A DNA stretch of 64,000 bases, taken from assembly GCA_026129485.1 (NCBI GenBank), contig JAHCHY010000004.1, forward strand, positions 124,001-188,000, written 5' to 3'. Every line of letters starts with the position of its first letter. Position 1 is the stretch's first letter. This document shows positions 20,407 through 28,056 of the stretch, in pieces. A program made the translations under genes and the position numbers. Below the pieces are notes generated by a model. That model was not told the origin of the DNA. It did not search any database and was given only the letters and a program-made list of their open reading frames with translations. This stretch comes from Cyclobacteriaceae bacterium. Lineage in GTDB: Bacteria; Bacteroidota; Bacteroidia; Cytophagales; Cyclobacteriaceae.

Positions 20407-20498
20407 GGCAATTTTTTTGATGTATAAAGCTACGGCTTGAACCTGAATACTACGGTATGCAGGTAGATTTTCCACAGATATAGGTAATTTGTGGCTTG

Positions 20499-22745
20499 AT
20501 GGAAACACCGGACTTTAAAAAATTCGCCAGCCGGTTCTTGAACACCACGGCAAGCCATGTTTTTTTAACAGGCAAAGCAGGCACGGGCAAAACTACTTTT
20601 CTGAAAAGCCTGGCGGAGCACACGCATAAAAATTTTATTGTAGTAGCGCCTACGGGTATTGCAGCGCTTAATGCAGGCGGTGTTACCATACACTCGCAGT
20701 TTTTAATTCCACCGGCAACTTACATACCCGACCGTTACCTGCCCGAAAACCTGGGTGAAGGCGGCCGGTATATCAACTCGCAAACGCTGGCGCGCAAGCA
20801 TCCGCTCAACAGCGCACGCAAGCAGGTTTTGCGTGCAATCGATTTGCTGGTGATTGATGAAGTAAGCATGCTGCGGGCCGATTTGCTGGATGCGATCGAC
20901 TACCGCATGAAAGCCGCACGCGGAAATTTTTCGCAAAGCTTTGGCGGTGTGCAGGTATTGTTTATCGGTGATTTGTTTCAGTTGCCCCCGGTAATTAAAA
21001 ACGAAGAGCAGGAATTGTTAAGCCGCTATTATACATCGCCCTGGTTTTACGAGGCGCTGGCCTTACGCGATAATCAACCCGTGTATATCGAGCTGGATAA
21101 AATCTACCGGCAGCACGATGAAGCATTTATTCGTATTTTGAACAACCTGCGAAACAGCACCGTTACCGAAGCGGACATCAGTACGCTGAATGAGCATTAT
21201 CAAACCCATGATCAGGTTGATCAGCTAAAGGAAGTAATCACGCTTACTACCCATAACTACAAAGCCGAGCAGTTAAACCGGCAGGCCTTAAATAACCTGC
21301 CTTCTGAAGCGCATTTTTTTGATGCCTCCCTCGAAGGAGAATTCCCGGAGAGCATGTACCCGGTGCAACTTCAACTGGAGCTGAAAGAAGGCGCGCAGAT
21401 CATGTTTGTGCGAAACGACACCAGCCTCGAAAAGAAATATTTTAACGGCAAGCTGGCTACCATTACCCGCATAGAAGATGATGAAGTGTGGGTGCAAATG
21501 GCCGGCACGCACGAGCCGTACCAGCTAAGCCGCGAGCGATGGGAGAACAAAAAGTATTCGGTGGATAAAGACAGCCACGTGCTGAATGAAGATGTGATTG
21601 GCTCGTTTGAGCAATACCCGGTAAAATTAGCGTGGGCGATAACGGTGCATAAAAGCCAGGGCTTAACATTCGATAAAGCGGTGATTGATGTGGCTGCGGC
21701 TTTTGCCGATGGGCAGGTGTATGTGGCGCTGTCGCGGTTGCGTTCATTGGATGGGTTGATTTTACGTTCAAGAATTAACCCCGATGCGGTGCGAACGGAT
21801 AGTCACGTAAAATCGTTTACCCACCAGGCCCATCAACCGGATACGTTGCACCAGGTTATTGAAGAGCAGCAGCGGCAATACATTGCACAACTGCTTGCGC
21901 AGACTTTTTCGTTTGATGGTTTGCTGAAAGAGATCAACTACATTGAAAAGAACAAGGAGCCTGAACGGTTGGAAGACCCGACCATGAAGCCGGTGCTGGC
22001 ACAGCTTGCAGATGCGTTCACCCACGAAAAAAGCAATACGGAGAAATTCAGGCACCAGCTTCAGCAGCTTATCGTGCAGCAGGCCCACGACCAGTTGCTG
22101 GAACGGATTGAGAAGGGTAGTGCTTACTACAGCAAGCTGGTGTGGGATCAGCTCAAGCTATTGCTTAACCACATGGAAGCAATAAAGCAGCAGAAACGGG
22201 TAAAAACGTATCTTGCCCAGCTTCAGGAAATCGATCAGTTGCTTTCGCGAAAGCAAGCTGAATTGTATCAGGCGCATTTGATCGTATCGCAGATTATCAA
22301 CGGGGCAGAGCAGTTTGATTTACGCGCAATACGTCAGGCATGGGAAGCAGAACGCTTGCGGATAATAAAAGAAATCAACCCGCTTCCTCCCGAAAAGAAA
22401 ACACCATCCAAAAAACGAAAGAAAAACCCGGATGATAAAAGTACCTATGATGTTACACTGGAGATGTTTAAGAATGGTTTAAGGCCTGGGGAAATTGCCA
22501 AAGAACGCGGGCTGGTGGTTGGCACCATTGAAGGGCACTTAGCCAAAGCAGTTGAACAAGCCCGGCTGGATATTCTTGAGTTTATGCCGAAAGAGGAAGT
22601 AGATGAAATTGCGGTAGCGGTAAAAGAATTTCCGGGGGCTTTTACCTCAAAAGAACTATACGATAAGTTGAATGGAAAATATGCGTATGGCAAGCTCAGG
22701 GCGGTTATGGCGCATGTAAAAGCACAAGCAAAGGCGCAGGATTGA
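20499..22745 (+). CDS. PIF1-type SF1B helicase with C-terminal HTH_40 domain
   Basis: 748 residues from ATG 20499; a TTG three bases earlier is also in frame. Walker A GKAGTGKT (25-32), Walker B/motif II LLVIDEVSML (about 124-133), motif III VLFIGDLFQLPPV, and C-terminal SF1 motifs including AWAITVHKSQGLTFDKAVIDV and VYVALSRLRSLDGL define a PIF1/RecD-like 5'-3' DNA helicase. From about 440 the chain is helical; a helix-turn-helix_40 segment (LEMFKNGLRPGEIAKERGLVVGTIEGHLAKAV, about 655-687) sits near the end. Probably acts in replication or repair. The gene immediately precedes the restriction-modification island. Confidence 0.92.
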   Translation: METPDFKKFASRFLNTTASHVFLTGKAGTGKTTFLKSLAEHTHKNFIVVAPTGIAALNAGGVTIHSQFLIPPATYIPDRYLPENLGEGGRYINSQTLARKHPLNSARKQVLRAIDLLVIDEVSMLRADLLDAIDYRMKAARGNFSQSFGGVQVLFIGDLFQLPPVIKNEEQELLSRYYTSPWFYEALALRDNQPVYIELDKIYRQHDEAFIRILNNLRNSTVTEADISTLNEHYQTHDQVDQLKEVITLTTHNYKAEQLNRQALNNLPSEAHFFDASLEGEFPESMYPVQLQLELKEGAQIMFVRNDTSLEKKYFNGKLATITRIEDDEVWVQMAGTHEPYQLSRERWENKKYSVDKDSHVLNEDVIGSFEQYPVKLAWAITVHKSQGLTFDKAVIDVAAAFADGQVYVALSRLRSLDGLILRSRINPDAVRTDSHVKSFTHQAHQPDTLHQVIEEQQRQYIAQLLAQTFSFDGLLKEINYIEKNKEPERLEDPTMKPVLAQLADAFTHEKSNTEKFRHQLQQLIVQQAHDQLLERIEKGSAYYSKLVWDQLKLLLNHMEAIKQQKRVKTYLAQLQEIDQLLSRKQAELYQAHLIVSQIINGAEQFDLRAIRQAWEAERLRIIKEINPLPPEKKTPSKKRKKNPDDKSTYDVTLEMFKNGLRPGEIAKERGLVVGTIEGHLAKAVEQARLDILEFMPKEEVDEIAVAVKEFPGAFTSKELYDKLNGKYAYGKLRAVMAHVKAQAKAQD

Positions 22746-22770
22746 AAGGCGTAGAATGTTCTTGTTCTTA

Positions 22771-22860
22771 GCGGAGTCTTCGCTTACGTATTTTGTTTCA
22801 GTGCAGGTTGTCTAAGTAGCTTCCGGTTTTAAATCGCGGAGTCCGAAGCGAGACTCCGCT
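22771..22860. repeat. Dyad repeat next to the restriction-modification island
   Basis: GCGGAGTC (22836-22843) pairs exactly with GACTCCGC (22852-22859) around CGAAGCGA. A partial copy, GCGGAGTCTTCGCT, occurs at 22771-22784. The hairpin has no T-run. It sits between the helicase stop and the left edge of the island. Confidence 0.55.
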
Positions 22861-22890
22861 TGGAAACGGGAATTACTACTGTTCAATTTA

Positions 22891-22953
22891 GCACAAATGT
22901 TCAATAGAAATCCGTTACCGCCATTTCACAAAATCCTTGTTGGTGGCTGCCCT
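22891..22953. repeat. Left boundary of the restriction-modification island
   Basis: GCACAAATGTTCAAT (22891-22905) differs by one base from GCACAAACGTTCAAT at 34361-34375, beside the DHFR-family gene. Further in, GTTACCGCCA (22914-22923) has a near copy in the same orientation at the right edge, GTTGCCGCCA (25230-25239). GTTGGTGGCTGCCCT (22939-22953) is an imperfect inverted match (12 of 15) to 25227-25241. The last ends 7 bp from the methyltransferase stop codon. Confidence 0.5.
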
Positions 22954-22959
22954 TGTCGT

Positions 22960-23916
22960 TTATATGGCTAATTCTACTTCACTGTCGTTATTTACAATTT
23001 TTAAAAAACTTGTCAAGTCGGGATTTGTCTTTATGCAATGTTCGGCTGCAAAGAAACTGCCATTCATTGATTGTGTATGTTTTTTGAAATAATCCAACAT
23101 TGTTGGATCGTTGTCGACTAAGATTGAGTTTCTGTTTTCTTCAATGCAAATTCTGCCTGTTGTTCCGGAACCTGCAAAAAAGTCAAGAACCAAAGAACCC
23201 GGATATGATAATCCTTTCACAAATCTGCGAATGAGTTCAAGAGGTTTTTGTGTAGGATGTCCGACACGCTCAACGGAATTCCCGTTTAGTCGTCCAATTT
23301 CCCAAACGTTAGTAGGATTTTTTCCTTTTTCAATGCTTTCAGGCAATAGGCGTTTGTCTTTCAACGCTACTTTTTTGCTTTCTTCATCATAAGGAACACG
23401 AACGGAATCCAAATCAAAATAATAGTCTTTTGTTTTGGAAAGCCAAATTGCTTCTTCGTGTCTGTTTGCAAAAAAGCGGTGAGCACTCATTCCGTTTTTG
23501 TAATACCAAATTACAAGATTGGTAAAACGCAAATCTGTATGATGTCTTGTGTAGTGCATAATTTCCAACAAGTCGCCTTTCTTCAAATCTTGGTATTGAA
23601 AACCGCCAAAGATTACGCAATTTCCTGTGTCCGTAAGGATACGATAAATTTCGTCTAACCATTGTTTTGCCCAGTCAAGATAATTTTCAAATGTGTCCCA
23701 ATGAGCTAAATCAATGTTGTATGGGGGGTCAATTAAAATTAACTGCACTGAATTATCAGGTATTTTTTTCAAAAGCTCAACCGCATCTTGCGTAAACAAG
23801 GCGTGATAAGTTTTTACAGGCATTTTTGTTTCAATGTGACTACTGTGTGCAACACCGTTCTTTTTTAGCATATTCATTGCGATATGCCCTGAATTGAAGT
23901 GTGATTTATTTGCCAT
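22960..23916 (-). CDS. RsrI-like type II DNA adenine N6-methyltransferase (predicted GAATTC)
   Basis: 318 residues, matching the ~319-residue M.RsrI. The beta-class motif order is visible: DPPYNIDLAHWD (63-74, motif IV) first, then HPTQKPLELIRRFVKGL and LDFFAGSGTTGRICIEENR (motif I, about 243-253). NGMSAHRFFANRHEEAIWLSKTKDYYFDLDSVR, KGKNPTNVW and GRLNGNSVERVGHPTQKP closely follow the RsrI sequence as I recall it. Reaction: AdoMet-dependent methylation of the inner adenine of GAATTC (inferred from R and M similarity). It follows the XRE gene by 14 bp, so both are probably on one transcript. Base composition is more AT-rich than the neighbours. Confidence 0.92.
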   Translation of the reverse strand: MANKSHFNSGHIAMNMLKKNGVAHSSHIETKMPVKTYHALFTQDAVELLKKIPDNSVQLILIDPPYNIDLAHWDTFENYLDWAKQWLDEIYRILTDTGNCVIFGGFQYQDLKKGDLLEIMHYTRHHTDLRFTNLVIWYYKNGMSAHRFFANRHEEAIWLSKTKDYYFDLDSVRVPYDEESKKVALKDKRLLPESIEKGKNPTNVWEIGRLNGNSVERVGHPTQKPLELIRRFVKGLSYPGSLVLDFFAGSGTTGRICIEENRNSILVDNDPTMLDYFKKHTQSMNGSFFAAEHCIKTNPDLTSFLKIVNNDSEVELAI

Positions 23917-23930
23917 ATTACTCGTTATTT

Positions 23931-24254
23931 TTAGTTTGACTGTCTTGTTGTTTTTAGATATTCTACTTTGGTTTCAGCAACTCTCAAAATTTTGCTGTCA
24001 GCTTCTTCTTCCAAAATTTGATATGCAATTTTGTCTGATAACATTTCGTTAATCAGTTCATTGCTATCAACCTTAAAAATGTCTGCTATTTTGCTTATTA
24101 ACTCCTTAGACGGATGTCTTTCGTTACGCTCGTATTTGGCAAGTAACGAAGTGTCAATGTCTAATAATGCAGCAACCTTTCGTTGAGGCAACTCTTGGTC
24201 CTCACGAAGTCTTCTAATTCTTTCCCCAAAAGTGGACAATTTTCTTTTGGACAT
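23931..24254 (-). CDS. XRE-family regulator of the restriction-modification locus
   Basis: 107 residues. An N-terminal XRE/Cro-type HTH (FGERIRRLREDQELPQRKVAALLDIDTSLLAKYERNERHPSKELISKIADIF, residues about 9-61) is followed by a 45-residue helical tail. Position between endonuclease and methyltransferase genes suggests a C-protein-like controller. It is longer than usual controller proteins (about 80 residues) and is coupled to the methyltransferase rather than the endonuclease, so it may repress or balance methyltransferase expression. A 13-bp palindrome lies 31 bp upstream of its start codon. Confidence 0.85.
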   Translation of the reverse strand: MSKRKLSTFGERIRRLREDQELPQRKVAALLDIDTSLLAKYERNERHPSKELISKIADIFKVDSNELINEMLSDKIAYQILEEEADSKILRVAETKVEYLKTTRQSN

Positions 24255-24285
24255 ATTTTACTATGGTCAATTATTGTCCTAATTT

Positions 24286-24298
24286 AGAAATTATTTCT
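24286..24298. promoter_or_regulatory. Candidate operator of the XRE regulator
   Basis: AGAAAT (24286-24291), one central T, then ATTTCT (24293-24298) form a perfect 13-bp palindrome between the endonuclease stop codon and the XRE start codon. The position suits an autoregulatory site for the XRE-methyltransferase transcript. No GACT/AGTC C-box of the classical kind was seen. Confidence 0.45.
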
Positions 24299-24334
24299 GA
24301 AATAAAAACGGGAAAGAAGGGCTATTAACAAAAA

Positions 24335-25138
24335 TCAGTCCAAAAGCCCTATAATCCGTAATGAAGTTTTGGAGACTTCCATCATAATAGGCAACATTTC
24401 ATCAATAGTCCATTCAGTTGCTTTGGTGAAAATTGAAACAGCTTGTAACATAACGGTCTGTCCATTAATTTCTATAAAGATGTTTTCGCAACTGTTTTGG
24501 TTGATTGGCAAACTGTAATTCGCTGCGGTCAATCTGTCAATTCTGTTTAACGAACCAGCATCGTGTTTTAGAACCACTTCGTTTCCGTCAGGACGTATAA
24601 CCGTTGTCGGTTCTGTGAGAAAATTAGAACCTTGTAAAAATAGAATGTAAGGAAAATGCTTTTCATCAATCATTACATTTCTGATTTCATTGATGTTTTT
24701 ATGTGAGCGTTCAATAGCGTTCCCAGCAACCATAAGGTCTTGGTCTTTGTTCTTACCAACCAAAATTCCTTTGCCGAGATTTTCTATGTCCTTTCCTTGA
24801 TGTTTGGCTTCACACACTAAAACAATTCGCCAATTATCGTCTTTGTCTTTTACTTCAATAATGCCTCCGTCTGGTTTTATTCTTGCATTTTCTACGAAGA
24901 TTGTTACGCCTAAACGGGCATCAACTTTATTCAACTTCTCATTTATTTCTTTTTTGCCAAGGTTGTCTCTGAAACGGAACTCCAACTTTGGAAACTCATT
25001 TGTCAAAGTTTCAAAAGCGGCTTTTGAAAAATCATTTACCGAAATGTCGTGTTTTTTTGCACTGTCTCCGAAAATTCCTTTCGGTCCTTCACTTTCTATA
25101 TGTTGTTTGCTCAAGCGGTTTGTTTGTTTTTTGCTCAT
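24335..25138 (-). CDS. EcoRI-family type II restriction endonuclease (predicted G^AATTC)
   Basis: 267 residues versus 277 for EcoRI, alignable by eye over most of its length. Catalytic residues are all kept one position earlier than in EcoRI: Asp90 in KPDGGIIEVKD, Glu110 and Lys112 in CEAKHQGKD. The DNA-recognition segment AGNAIERSHKN keeps Asn140, Ala141 and Arg144, and LNRIDRLTAANYSLPIN keeps Arg199 and Arg202. These match the EcoRI residues that read GAATTC, so the same specificity is predicted. No frame damage. First gene of the leftward order R - XRE - M, with 80 bp and its own candidate promoter ahead of the XRE gene. Confidence 0.95.
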   Translation of the reverse strand: MSKKQTNRLSKQHIESEGPKGIFGDSAKKHDISVNDFSKAAFETLTNEFPKLEFRFRDNLGKKEINEKLNKVDARLGVTIFVENARIKPDGGIIEVKDKDDNWRIVLVCEAKHQGKDIENLGKGILVGKNKDQDLMVAGNAIERSHKNINEIRNVMIDEKHFPYILFLQGSNFLTEPTTVIRPDGNEVVLKHDAGSLNRIDRLTAANYSLPINQNSCENIFIEINGQTVMLQAVSIFTKATEWTIDEMLPIMMEVSKTSLRIIGLLD

Positions 25139-25170
25139 TAGTTCCTGTCTCTCTTATTCGTAATTGCGGA

Positions 25171-25178
25171 CAAAGTTA
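25171..25178 (-). promoter_or_regulatory. Candidate -7 promoter element of the endonuclease gene
   Basis: Read on the minus strand this is TAACTTTG, a match to the Bacteroidota -7 consensus TAnnTTTG, 33 bp before the endonuclease start codon. No clear TTG -33 element is seen at the expected distance. Confidence 0.4.
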
Positions 25179-25226
25179 CATTTTTTCATTTTTGTTCGTC
25201 CATTTAATGTTTGCACTGTCGATGAT

Positions 25227-25241
25227 AGGGTTGCCGCCAAC
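25227..25241. repeat. Right boundary of the restriction-modification island
   Basis: AGGGTTGCCGCCAAC; its reverse complement GTTGGCGGCAACCCT matches 22939-22953 at 12 of 15 positions, so the pair forms imperfect terminal inverted repeats around R-XRE-M. The enclosed GTTGCCGCCA also matches GTTACCGCCA (22914-22923) as a direct repeat. Confidence 0.45.
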
Positions 25242-25416
25242 TCCCAAATATACGCACTCCTCTGCTTCTACAATCCTGACTTTCAGTGAATGAATAAAAA
25301 TGCCCGAAATGCGCAACTGTTTTAAATGCTATCCAACGGGATTTTGATTTTTTTTCAAGTCCTTTTTTCCTGCTTCGGTATAAAGCAAATGGTTTTTATG
25401 TTGTTGTGCCCTAAAG

Positions 25417-28056
25417 CTACTTCTTCCTCCTCGTCAATATCGGTTGAATCAGCTTCGCTACCAAACCCGTCCAGCCCGTTTGGTGGCTGGCACCGAGGCC
25501 GCGACCGGTATCACCATCAAAGTATTCGTAAAAGAGTAAGTTGTCTTTAAAATCGGGGTTGGACTGAAACAATTCCTGCTCGCCATACATGGGCCGCCTG
25601 CCTTCGGCATTGGTTTTAAACATCGCGATAAGCCGTTGCGAAAGCTCGCTGGCAATTTCGCGCAGCGTAAGCATGTTGCCCGAGCCGGTAGGGTGCTCTA
25701 CTTTAAAATCATCGCCATAATAATGATGAAAGCGTTGCAGCGATTCAATGATGAGGTAATTAACCGGGAACCACACCGGCCCGCGCCAGTTGCTGTTGCC
25801 GCCAAACAAATACGAATCGCTTTCGCCAGGCTGGTAGCGCACCGAAAACTGGCTGCCGTTGGCATGCAGCACATAAGGGTTATCCAGGTGATGCCGCGAA
25901 AGCGCGCGCACACCGTAAGGCGATAGAAATTCTTTTTCATCCAACATGCGCTTGAGCAGCCGCTTCATGCGATGGCCGCGCAGCAACGAAAGCAGGTGGC
26001 GTTGATTTTTACCACGCTCGCCCCAGCGCGAGATCAGGTTGGCCAGGTCGGGCCGGTTTTGTAAAAACCAGTCGAGGCGGGCGGTAAACTCCGGCATCTT
26101 CTGAAAAATTTCTTCGTCCAGCACTTCCACGGCAAACAACGGAATAAGCCCAACCATGGAGCGCACCTTTAGCTGAATGCGATCATTCGATGGCAGGTGT
26201 AATACATCGTAAAAAAATTCATCTTCTTCATCCCACAGGTTAATGCCTTCCTTGCTTACGTTGGCCATCGCACCCGCGATGTAGAGAAAGTGCTCAAAGA
26301 ACTTGGTGGCTAAGCTCTGGTAAGTTGGATTCTCTTTGGCCAGCTCCAGCGACATGCGCAGCAGGTTAAGGGTGTACATGGCCATCCAGCTTGTACCGTC
26401 CGATTGCTCGATGTGGCCACCGGTGGGCAGGTGCGTGCTGCTGCGGTCGAACACACCAATGTTATCCATACCCAGGAAGCCGCCCTGAAAAATGTTATTG
26501 CCGCTCTGGTCTTTCTTGTTTACCCACCACGTAAAGTTGAGCAGCAGCTTGTGAAAAATTTCTTCGAGGAATTTCAGATCAGCTTTGCCGTCCTGCAGCC
26601 TGCGATCGATCTTGAATACGCGCCAGGCAGCCCACGCATGCACAGGCGGATTCACATCGCCAAAGGCCCACTCGTATGCCGGCAGTTGTCCGTTGGGATG
26701 CATATACCACTCTTTGGTAAGCAGCAGCAACTGGTTCTTGGCAAACTCCGGGTCGATCATGGCTAAGGGTATGGCATGAAAGGCCAGATCCCACGCGGCA
26801 TACCACGGGTACTCCCATTTATCGGGCATGGAAATAATATCGGCATTGTGAAGATGATCCCACTCGTGGTTTCGGCCGCGTCTGCGTTCATACGGTGGCG
26901 GTGGCTGGTGCGGATCGCCCCGCAGCCATACATCCAGATCATAATAATAAAACTGCTTGCTCCAGAGCATACCGGCCAATGCCTGGCGTTGAATCAATTT
27001 TTCTTCTTCGGATGTAATATCCTTTTGCAGATCGGCATAATATGCATCGGCTTCGGCTTTGGCTTTTTTTAATGCCTGGTCAAAATGGTGAAAAGGTTTC
27101 TGATGGAAGCGTGAAGCGAGGCGCAGGCGCACAGCTTTCGATTCGCCCGGTTTTAGCGTAAGATCAATGCGGTAAGCGGCCTTGGTGCCTTTGTTGATTT
27201 TATTGACGGATGCCGGGTAATTGAAGATGATGTAATCGTTGATACCATCTTTAAACGTACCTGGCTGAAAGTGCTGGTGTAAGCGCCATGTGTTGGTTTC
27301 ATTTTCGCAGAAGAGCGGTTCGTGCGCACCTTCGCAGCAAAAGTAATACGAGCCTAACTGCTTGTGGCTCGCCTTCATAATGCCTTTATCGTCTAAGTAA
27401 ATTTCCGGCCGGGTATCGTCATATCCCCAGGCCCACGTGTTGCGAAACCACAGTGTAGGCAAAACTTCAATGGCAGCCGTTTCCGGCCCGCGATTGGTAA
27501 CGGTAACCTGCATCAGGATGTCGCATACATCCGCCTTGGCATATTCTACGGCTACATCAAAGTAGCGGTTATCGGCAAAAATGTTGGTGTCCGTTAATTC
27601 AAACTCACGATCGTGCTTGCCCCTGCGTTTACTTTCTTCCGCTAATTGGGCATAAGGATATTCCTGCTGCGGGTACTTGTACAACATGCGCATGTACGAG
27701 TGCGAGGGTGTGGAGTCGAGGTAATAATAAATTTCTTTTACGTCTTCACCATGATTGCCTTCGGGATTGGTCAGCCCGAAAAACCGTTCTTTCAGGATCG
27801 GGTCTTTTTTATTCCAGAGCGCCAGCGCCAGGCAGAGAAATTGTTTTTCGTCCGAAATCCCGGCAATGCCCTCTTCGCCCCAGCGATAGGCTTTGCTGCG
27901 GGCCATGTCGTGTGTAATGTAATTCCAGGCATCGCCATTGGGGCTGTAATCTTCGCGCACCGTTCCCCATTGCCGTTCGGTAAGGTAGGGGCCCCATTGC
28001 CGCCAGTTTTTTACCTTGTCGCGATCTTCAATCAATCTTTGTTTCTCGGCCGTCAT
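25417..28056 (-). CDS. GH63-type glycosidase
   Basis: 879 residues, no signal peptide, so probably cytosolic. N-terminal beta-sandwich (about 1-330) followed by an (alpha/alpha)6 barrel. [19 protein letters not shown] (about 437-455) holds the candidate acid Asp, and [29 protein letters not shown] near the C-terminus (about 843-871) holds the candidate base Glu, in line with GH63 glucosidases. [19 protein letters not shown] and [19 protein letters not shown] are typical of the bacterial MGH/GH63 branch. Likely cleaves alpha-glucosides such as glucosylglycerate or similar solutes, but the substrate is inference. Its 3' end lies 175 bp from the right edge of the island. Confidence 0.85.

Follow-up and report, generated by a model that had tools for sequence, protein, structure and literature searches.

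How might an EcoRI-type restriction-modification (R-M) system be controlled when its small regulator gene stands directly before the methyltransferase gene and behind that of the endonuclease? The question is raised by a locus in a 64,000-nucleotide (64-kb) stretch of DNA from a Cyclobacteriaceae bacterium (NCBI GenBank assembly GCA_026129485.1, contig JAHCHY010000004.1, positions 124,001 to 188,000), hereafter the window, in whose numbering coordinates are given unless another locus is named. Three genes make up the locus, encoding an endonuclease (R), a regulator (X), and a methyltransferase (M):

24335-25138, minus strand: R, EcoRI-family endonuclease, 267 amino acids (aa); Pfam PF02963, E 8.8e-119; PDB 2oxv/1ckq, E about 4e-100
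23931-24254, minus strand: X, XRE/HTH_3 regulator with a C-terminal extension, 107 aa; Pfam HTH_3, E 2.1e-12
22960-23916, minus strand: M, M.RsrI-type adenine methyltransferase, 318 aa; Pfam N6_N4_Mtase; PDB 1eg2, E 5.7e-107

We consider it likely that X represses the promoter in front of X and M, giving a burst of methylase that is afterwards throttled, with R expressed from a promoter of its own. The sequence gives the gene identities, their order, a predicted shared motif at the -7 box of X with none recognised before R, and the link of X to methyltransferase genes; the X-M operon, binding by X, repression, and timing are what we infer.

The gene order on the minus strand is R-X-M, with spacers of 80 bp between R and X and 14 bp between X and M, and our open reading frame (ORF) calls reproduce the three minus-strand ORFs of a first-pass annotation that had been made from the sequence alone. 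R aligns to the R.EcoRI chains across residues 2-264 in the PDB search and is 58.7% identical over 98% to the EcoRI of E. coli plasmids. The key EcoRI residues listed in the first-pass annotation, which have catalytic and base-reading roles, are indeed found in R, each one position away from its EcoRI number (D90, E110, K112, N140, A141, R144, R199, and R202). With this full-length match and its active-site and recognition residues, R is a member of the EcoRI endonuclease family (PF02963). M has M.RsrI as its best PDB match, with similarity covering 1-281 of 318 aa, and carries the motifs DPPY at 63 and FAGSG (FxGxG) at 247, in agreement with the earlier assignment to the RsrI type; BLASTP of M against an M.EcoRI-type enzyme gave no significant similarity (best E 0.087). 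Judged by these matches, R and M would form a Type II R-M system for GAATTC. As the first-pass annotation had also noted, GAATTC sites occur in the window, 10 against a Markov expectation of 13.5 and one of them inside M at 23276, so the site is not strongly avoided there. In X, a helix-turn-helix (HTH) was the sole domain type detected by domain scans.

Among 395 phylum genomes searched for X, 54 gave matches at E 1e-10, and our sample held 61 ORFs besides the window's X; the 46 under 200 aa were counted and the other 15 (331-506 aa) set aside, and ORF L114 was dropped since it occupies the same place as L050. Taking as the neighbour of X the next same-strand gene within 400 bp, typed by Pfam, the downstream gene of the short ORFs is a DNA methyltransferase in 36 of 46, a count that, like all counts here, is uncorrected for relatedness among ORFs some of which are mutually close relatives. 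The regulator is thus not a one-off. These methyltransferases are of several types (C5, N6_N4, N6_Mtase/HsdM, Eco57I, and D12), and 32 of them are separated from X by a computed gap of -14 to +23 bp, the other four gaps being -212 to -47, from ORF calls with an early start, or +58. For comparison, we took the best HTH_3 match per genome, a non-random choice, for 30 of the genomes, which gave 27 control loci; L164 (itself of the X family) and L173 (no ORF found) were then dropped. Five others (L154, L163, L165, L167, and L170) have no same-strand gene within 400 bp, and a methyltransferase lies downstream in 0 of 20 scannable genes, which include one Type II endonuclease, one Vsr, and one PD-(D/E)XK protein. 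The window's X shares the trait of its family, lying directly upstream of, and co-directional with, M.

The window's genome holds a second X gene, L113 (G000:C12, 615-2974), one of the 46 and 48% identical, with a 4-bp overlap between it and the beginning of an Eco57I-type methylase gene. A long form of X (331-362 aa) is found under one genus label (L087, L090, L094-L096, L099-L101, L103, L104, L106, and L108-L110); no DNA-methyltransferase motif was flagged near these loci, most of which stand beside what we take to be smpB-like and pcm-like genes. Searching plasmids with X gave one match, on a Chryseobacterium plasmid (40% over 88%), and searching viral contigs gave two weak HTH matches.

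The promoter regions at the locus contain the following predicted elements:

24264-24280, minus strand: predicted X operator AGGACAATAATTGACCA, 10-26 bp upstream of the X start codon, from the family motif and a subgroup matrix
24279-24286, minus strand: predicted -7 box of the X-M promoter TAAATTAG, one base off TAnnTTTG, with 2 bp in common with the operator
25171-25178, minus strand: possible -7 box of R TAACTTTG, 33 bp upstream of the R start codon
24286-24298, no strand assigned: 13-bp palindrome AGAAATAATTTCT, adjoining the predicted operator and distinct from the family motif

An inverted repeat is common to the X promoters, with a half-site score of at least 14.5 in 36 of 47 versus 5.9% of 940 shuffles, and a 25-position matrix built from these promoters has the consensus TATATTTGACAAAAATTGACAAGTC. 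With leave-one-out scoring and a threshold set at the 99% level of shuffles (9.02 for the family-wide matrix), the motif passes in 34 of 45 X promoters versus 0 of 25 control promoters; L061, whose X frame is broken (41 aa), was left out of this count. Positions 1-8 of the motif are the Bacteroidota -7 element, whose consensus is given as TAnnTTTG in an excerpt of PMC7366714. As the motif is fused to this element, a protein bound to it would cover the promoter core. TAnnTTTG lies at most 70 nt before the start codon in 34 of 47 X promoters versus 117 of 2350 shuffles.

The relatives nearest to the window's X have a GGAC variant of the motif. Scanning with a subgroup matrix that was designed after the window's site had been seen, from nine related promoters (seven with GGAC; the window and L014, the locus most like it, left out of the counts), ranks 24264-24280 first in the 64-kb window (19.4 versus 9.8 for the next place) and the matching place first in the 10.8-kb L014 locus (20.9 versus 7.3). 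The -7 box at the X-M promoter of L014 is TATGTTTG, and its operator scores 10.5 with the family-wide matrix, above threshold. A GGAC site is found in 7 of 8 promoters whose X has D-T-S in its recognition helix versus 1 of 37 others (Fisher p 1.4e-6, with helix classes chosen after the fact and kinship uncorrected). These sites precede C5 genes (L049, L051, L053), N6 genes (L050, L060, L063), and genes other than methyltransferases (L062, L067), that is, genes of several kinds, and hence the site tracks X and not the next gene. No family-matrix site was found in the 250 bp upstream of R (best score -5.5), and with the subgroup matrix no second operator site was found in the window or L014, which have one each. 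A sigma-70 promoter scan, with 10 sites versus a mean of 6.3 in shuffles, was not useful here.

The first-pass annotation had pointed to the 13-bp palindrome in front of the regulator, and the palindrome is present where it was placed, although it is not the shared site, which adjoins it. We rejected it as the X operator because its sequence differs from the family motif and has not been conserved in L014, where the aligned stretch GGAAATATTTTCT is an imperfect palindrome. The earlier interpretation holds in its main lines and errs on the operator.

In the mechanism that we propose, R would be transcribed from its own promoter, and X and M would form one operon, whose promoter has an inverted repeat beginning within its -7 box. 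By binding to this repeat, probably as a dimer, X would repress its own operon. In a naive host, which lacks X, M and X would be made at full rate and the genome would become methylated; as X accumulates, M would be throttled to a low steady level, which would leave incoming DNA unprotected. Direct activation of R by X is improbable, as no site for X can be recognised at the R promoter; in this X would differ from a classical controller (C) protein. In addition, a scan of the minus strand over 22700-25500 found nothing terminator-like. Transcription of R may therefore continue into X-M, and such read-through may keep M coupled to R.

We then compared regulator placement, as the first-pass annotation had suggested, across 38 distinct EcoRI-type loci with the window included. 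The repeats L194 (= L018) and L195 (= L022) were dropped after a check that compared one 300-base piece per locus, the sub-threshold matches L011 and L121 were left out, and from plasmids 8 of 19 records with an EcoRI-type match were opened. The partner of R is of the M.EcoRI type in 29 loci, of the M.RsrI type in 7 (the window, L014, L023, L025, L032, L147, and L193), and of a different type in 1 (L033); at L024 no methyltransferase partner was found. An X-family regulator is present in 2 of the 38, the window and L014, both ordered R-X-M, and L014 holds the whole block at 81-84% identity to the window (83% for X). That the regulator is tied to M rather than to R stands; X follows R and lies just before M. 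The further claim of a new regulatory design stands insofar as the R-X-M order is rare, but we soften it because X recurs in L014 and belongs to a wider family.

The remaining RsrI-type loci vary. L032, on an Acinetobacter plasmid, has a divergent HTH gene; L147, on a viral contig (2766-4784), is a compact block of HTH_26 gene, RsrI-type M, and EcoRI-type R, and its HTH_26 is a third kind of regulator in this RsrI-type/EcoRI-type group; at L023, L025, and L193 no regulator was seen. The X-family profile run on the fetched EcoRI-type loci at E 0.01 matched in L014 and L032 only, an incomplete test for regulators, since both the HTH_26 gene of L147 and an annotated HTH gene of L030 escaped it and some flanks were short. 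Of the 13 R proteins that are 76-82% identical to that of the window, 11 have a partner of the M.EcoRI type. A tree built from 23 R proteins has stars on 5 of its 20 inner branches and places the window's R outside a ten-row, M.EcoRI-partnered clade supported at 99/99; partner swaps are not countable on a tree with such weak support.

Related genes were also seen elsewhere. Four viral contigs (L144, L145, L146, and L148) carry M.RsrI-type genes (59-81% identity) whose fetched flanks yielded no EcoRI-type gene, and these are possibly orphan methylases that shield phage DNA from GAATTC cutters. L123 (G040:C24, 1330-2358), at 59% identity, is the sole M.RsrI-type gene above 40% identity besides the window's among the matches listed from the 395 genomes, and neither R nor X was found within 1.5 kb on either side. 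Searching plasmids with M at E 1e-60 returned one match, L032, and searching viral contigs with the R of L014 returned only the already known L027. At L026, L034, and L202 the R frame is broken beside a methyltransferase frame, the latter shortened or split in L026 and L034, and L033, on a Paracoccus marcusii plasmid, encodes a highly diverged member of the EcoRI family (26% identity over 82%), preceded by an adenine methylase of a different kind.

Several observations weigh against repression of X-M by X and should be read beside it, together with the kinship among the sampled ORFs and the after-the-fact design not just of the subgroup matrix but also of the half-site patterns and helix classes. 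The window's operator scores 8.86 with the family-wide matrix, below the threshold of 9.02, which 11 of the 45 X promoters scored do not pass, while a half-site inside M at 22995 scores 11.8; the window is also among the 13 of 47 X promoters without an exact TAnnTTTG. Part of the motif's conservation could reflect common descent of X and the promoter before it. In 10 of 46 cases the neighbour of X is not a methyltransferase by Pfam, being HsdR-like (L069), ResIII (L068), SNF2/PLDc (L067), BrxA (L092), AAA_15 (L054), polyphosphate kinase (L073), HepT-like (L074), or of no family (L056, L062, L066), though at L056 and L066 an ORF with an xPPY motif, a match to the motif only, lies one gene beyond. 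Two of the 36 methyltransferase neighbours, those at L050 and L064, match N6_Mtase weakly. A second site lies 38-39 bp upstream in three close relatives (L049, L051, and L053), and such pairing can accompany activation among C proteins. Finally, the AlphaFold model of X, made from a two-row alignment, is poor, with a predicted local distance difference test (pLDDT) score of 58.7, and because a Foldseek search with it also found no match at E 0.001 or better, we make no claim about the fold of X.

The paired sites lead to the possibility that X is a classical C protein, which would activate itself at low level, repress itself at high level, and raise R with a delay. X is indeed small, has an HTH, and is encoded within an R-M system, and the X-family profile matches C.AhdI (E 3.2e-9), C.BclI (5.9e-7), and the R-M controller 3clc (7.8e-6; presumably that of Esp1396I) in the PDB. 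However, other XRE proteins match better (9sf2 at 2.7e-13 and the ICEBs1 regulator 7t8i at 7.2e-10), and as the two sets of matches are similar in strength, they decide for neither. The gene arrangement speaks against a C protein: X precedes M and follows R, where a C gene would precede R or share its promoter and control it, and no site was found before R. An activating and repressing operator pair was found in neither the window nor L014; each has a single predicted site, and a protein bound there, at the -7 box, should prevent transcription. We therefore regard a classical C protein as quite improbable here, and a throttle on M as the better fit.

It is also unlikely, though a little less so, that X represses the methyltransferase operon in answer to a signal from host or phage, as an induced defence, and does not serve as a timer of establishment. 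This explanation shares its repression step with the throttle on M, and the probabilities that we attach to the readings do not sum to one. In its favour, the family also precedes Type I HsdM, HsdR-like, Eco57I-type, and BrxA genes, for which a Type II-like entry timer is less obvious, and RptR of E. coli represses its own Type I island (excerpt of PMC12255303); against it, no domain besides the HTH was found in X. The broken R frames at L026, L034, and L202 might instead suggest a decaying insertion in which X and M are remnants without any regulation, but at the window R, X, and M are all open with their motifs kept, and L014 keeps the block with its site retained, which makes decay very improbable.

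The R-M block lies between a PIF1-type helicase gene (20496-22745, plus strand) and a GH63-like gene (25417-28056, minus strand), and it was horizontally acquired. Its guanine-cytosine (GC) content is 34-39% versus 40-54% in the flanks, and among 62 genomes from the genus the window's alone has an EcoRI-type R, a further match in genome G423 being below the family cut-off. The GH63 gene is present in 4 of 12 genus genomes searched (91-92% identity in three, 72% in the fourth), and the gene at its 3' end differs among G402, G403, and G401, the contig of G407 stopping there; the block is thus placed where gene order changes. An empty-site comparison did not find the exact insertion ends among the relatives, since these differ by rearrangement. 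A repetitive extragenic palindromic (REP)-like hairpin at 22838-22857 adjoins M and has five exact copies in the genome including itself, with one further copy at three mismatches and 0 in a backwards control. In the relative G403 (L116, 8088-8714), an ORF that by eye we take to be transposase-like adjoins the GH63 gene.

The known systems, compared here through excerpts of the papers cited, each resemble the locus in part. The EcoRI of E. coli plasmids is a homologous endonuclease with the same catalytic and base-reading residues as R, but its methyltransferase is of another type than M, and its regulation is described through promoters and antisense RNA inside the R gene (PMC3874152). RsrI of Rhodobacter sphaeroides shares its methyltransferase type with the window, and R.EcoRI and R.RsrI are reported to be 50% identical (PMC4081073). 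LraI is described as a two-gene operon (PMC5896346). In C-protein systems (PvuII, AhdI, Esp1396I, Csp231I) the regulator is likewise a small HTH protein, and its own promoter carries an inverted-repeat operator (PMC12707154, PMC3115060), an element that in the window is predicted; in contrast to X, with its one site, C typically boosts R from a shared promoter (PMC12707154). HsdC of Mollicutes is a C-like protein heading an R-M operon and a probable repressor, and one predicted Mollicutes site type is GGACN5GTCC, but its experimentally confirmed sites are direct repeats and the operon in the tested species is Type I (PMC5282649). RptR is encoded by the first gene of an R-M operon and represses its own promoter; it differs in binding 6-bp palindromes in direct repeats and in being Type I-linked and from Gammaproteobacteria, and the excerpt does not term it XRE (PMC12255303). 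Among the titles and abstract starts listed in searches of the open literature we found no description of the X family or of a controller in an EcoRI-type system, which is weak evidence of absence. A C-protein motif study by Sorokin et al., cited in PMC3115060, may already report the X-family motif.

More broadly, X may belong to a phylum-wide, undescribed family of portable self-repressors of methyltransferase operons (Type I, II, IIG, BREX-linked, and other defence-like), whose operator would be built into the Bacteroidota -7 box with a half-site read by a variable recognition helix, and whose module would here be slotted between an EcoRI-type R and an RsrI-type M, such that the methylase and not the endonuclease is throttled by a protein; on this wider proposal we are evenly divided. 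EcoRI is a textbook restriction enzyme whose regulation has been described without a controller protein, and a methylase-limiting repressor in one of its relatives would allow a direct test of whether throttling M, and not delaying R, suffices for a Type II system to become established. Of greater interest is the general finding of a probable repressor family linked with methyltransferase operons throughout the phylum, which would offer a set of promoters, operators, and helices for measuring the DNA-recognition code of Bacteroidota defence operons.

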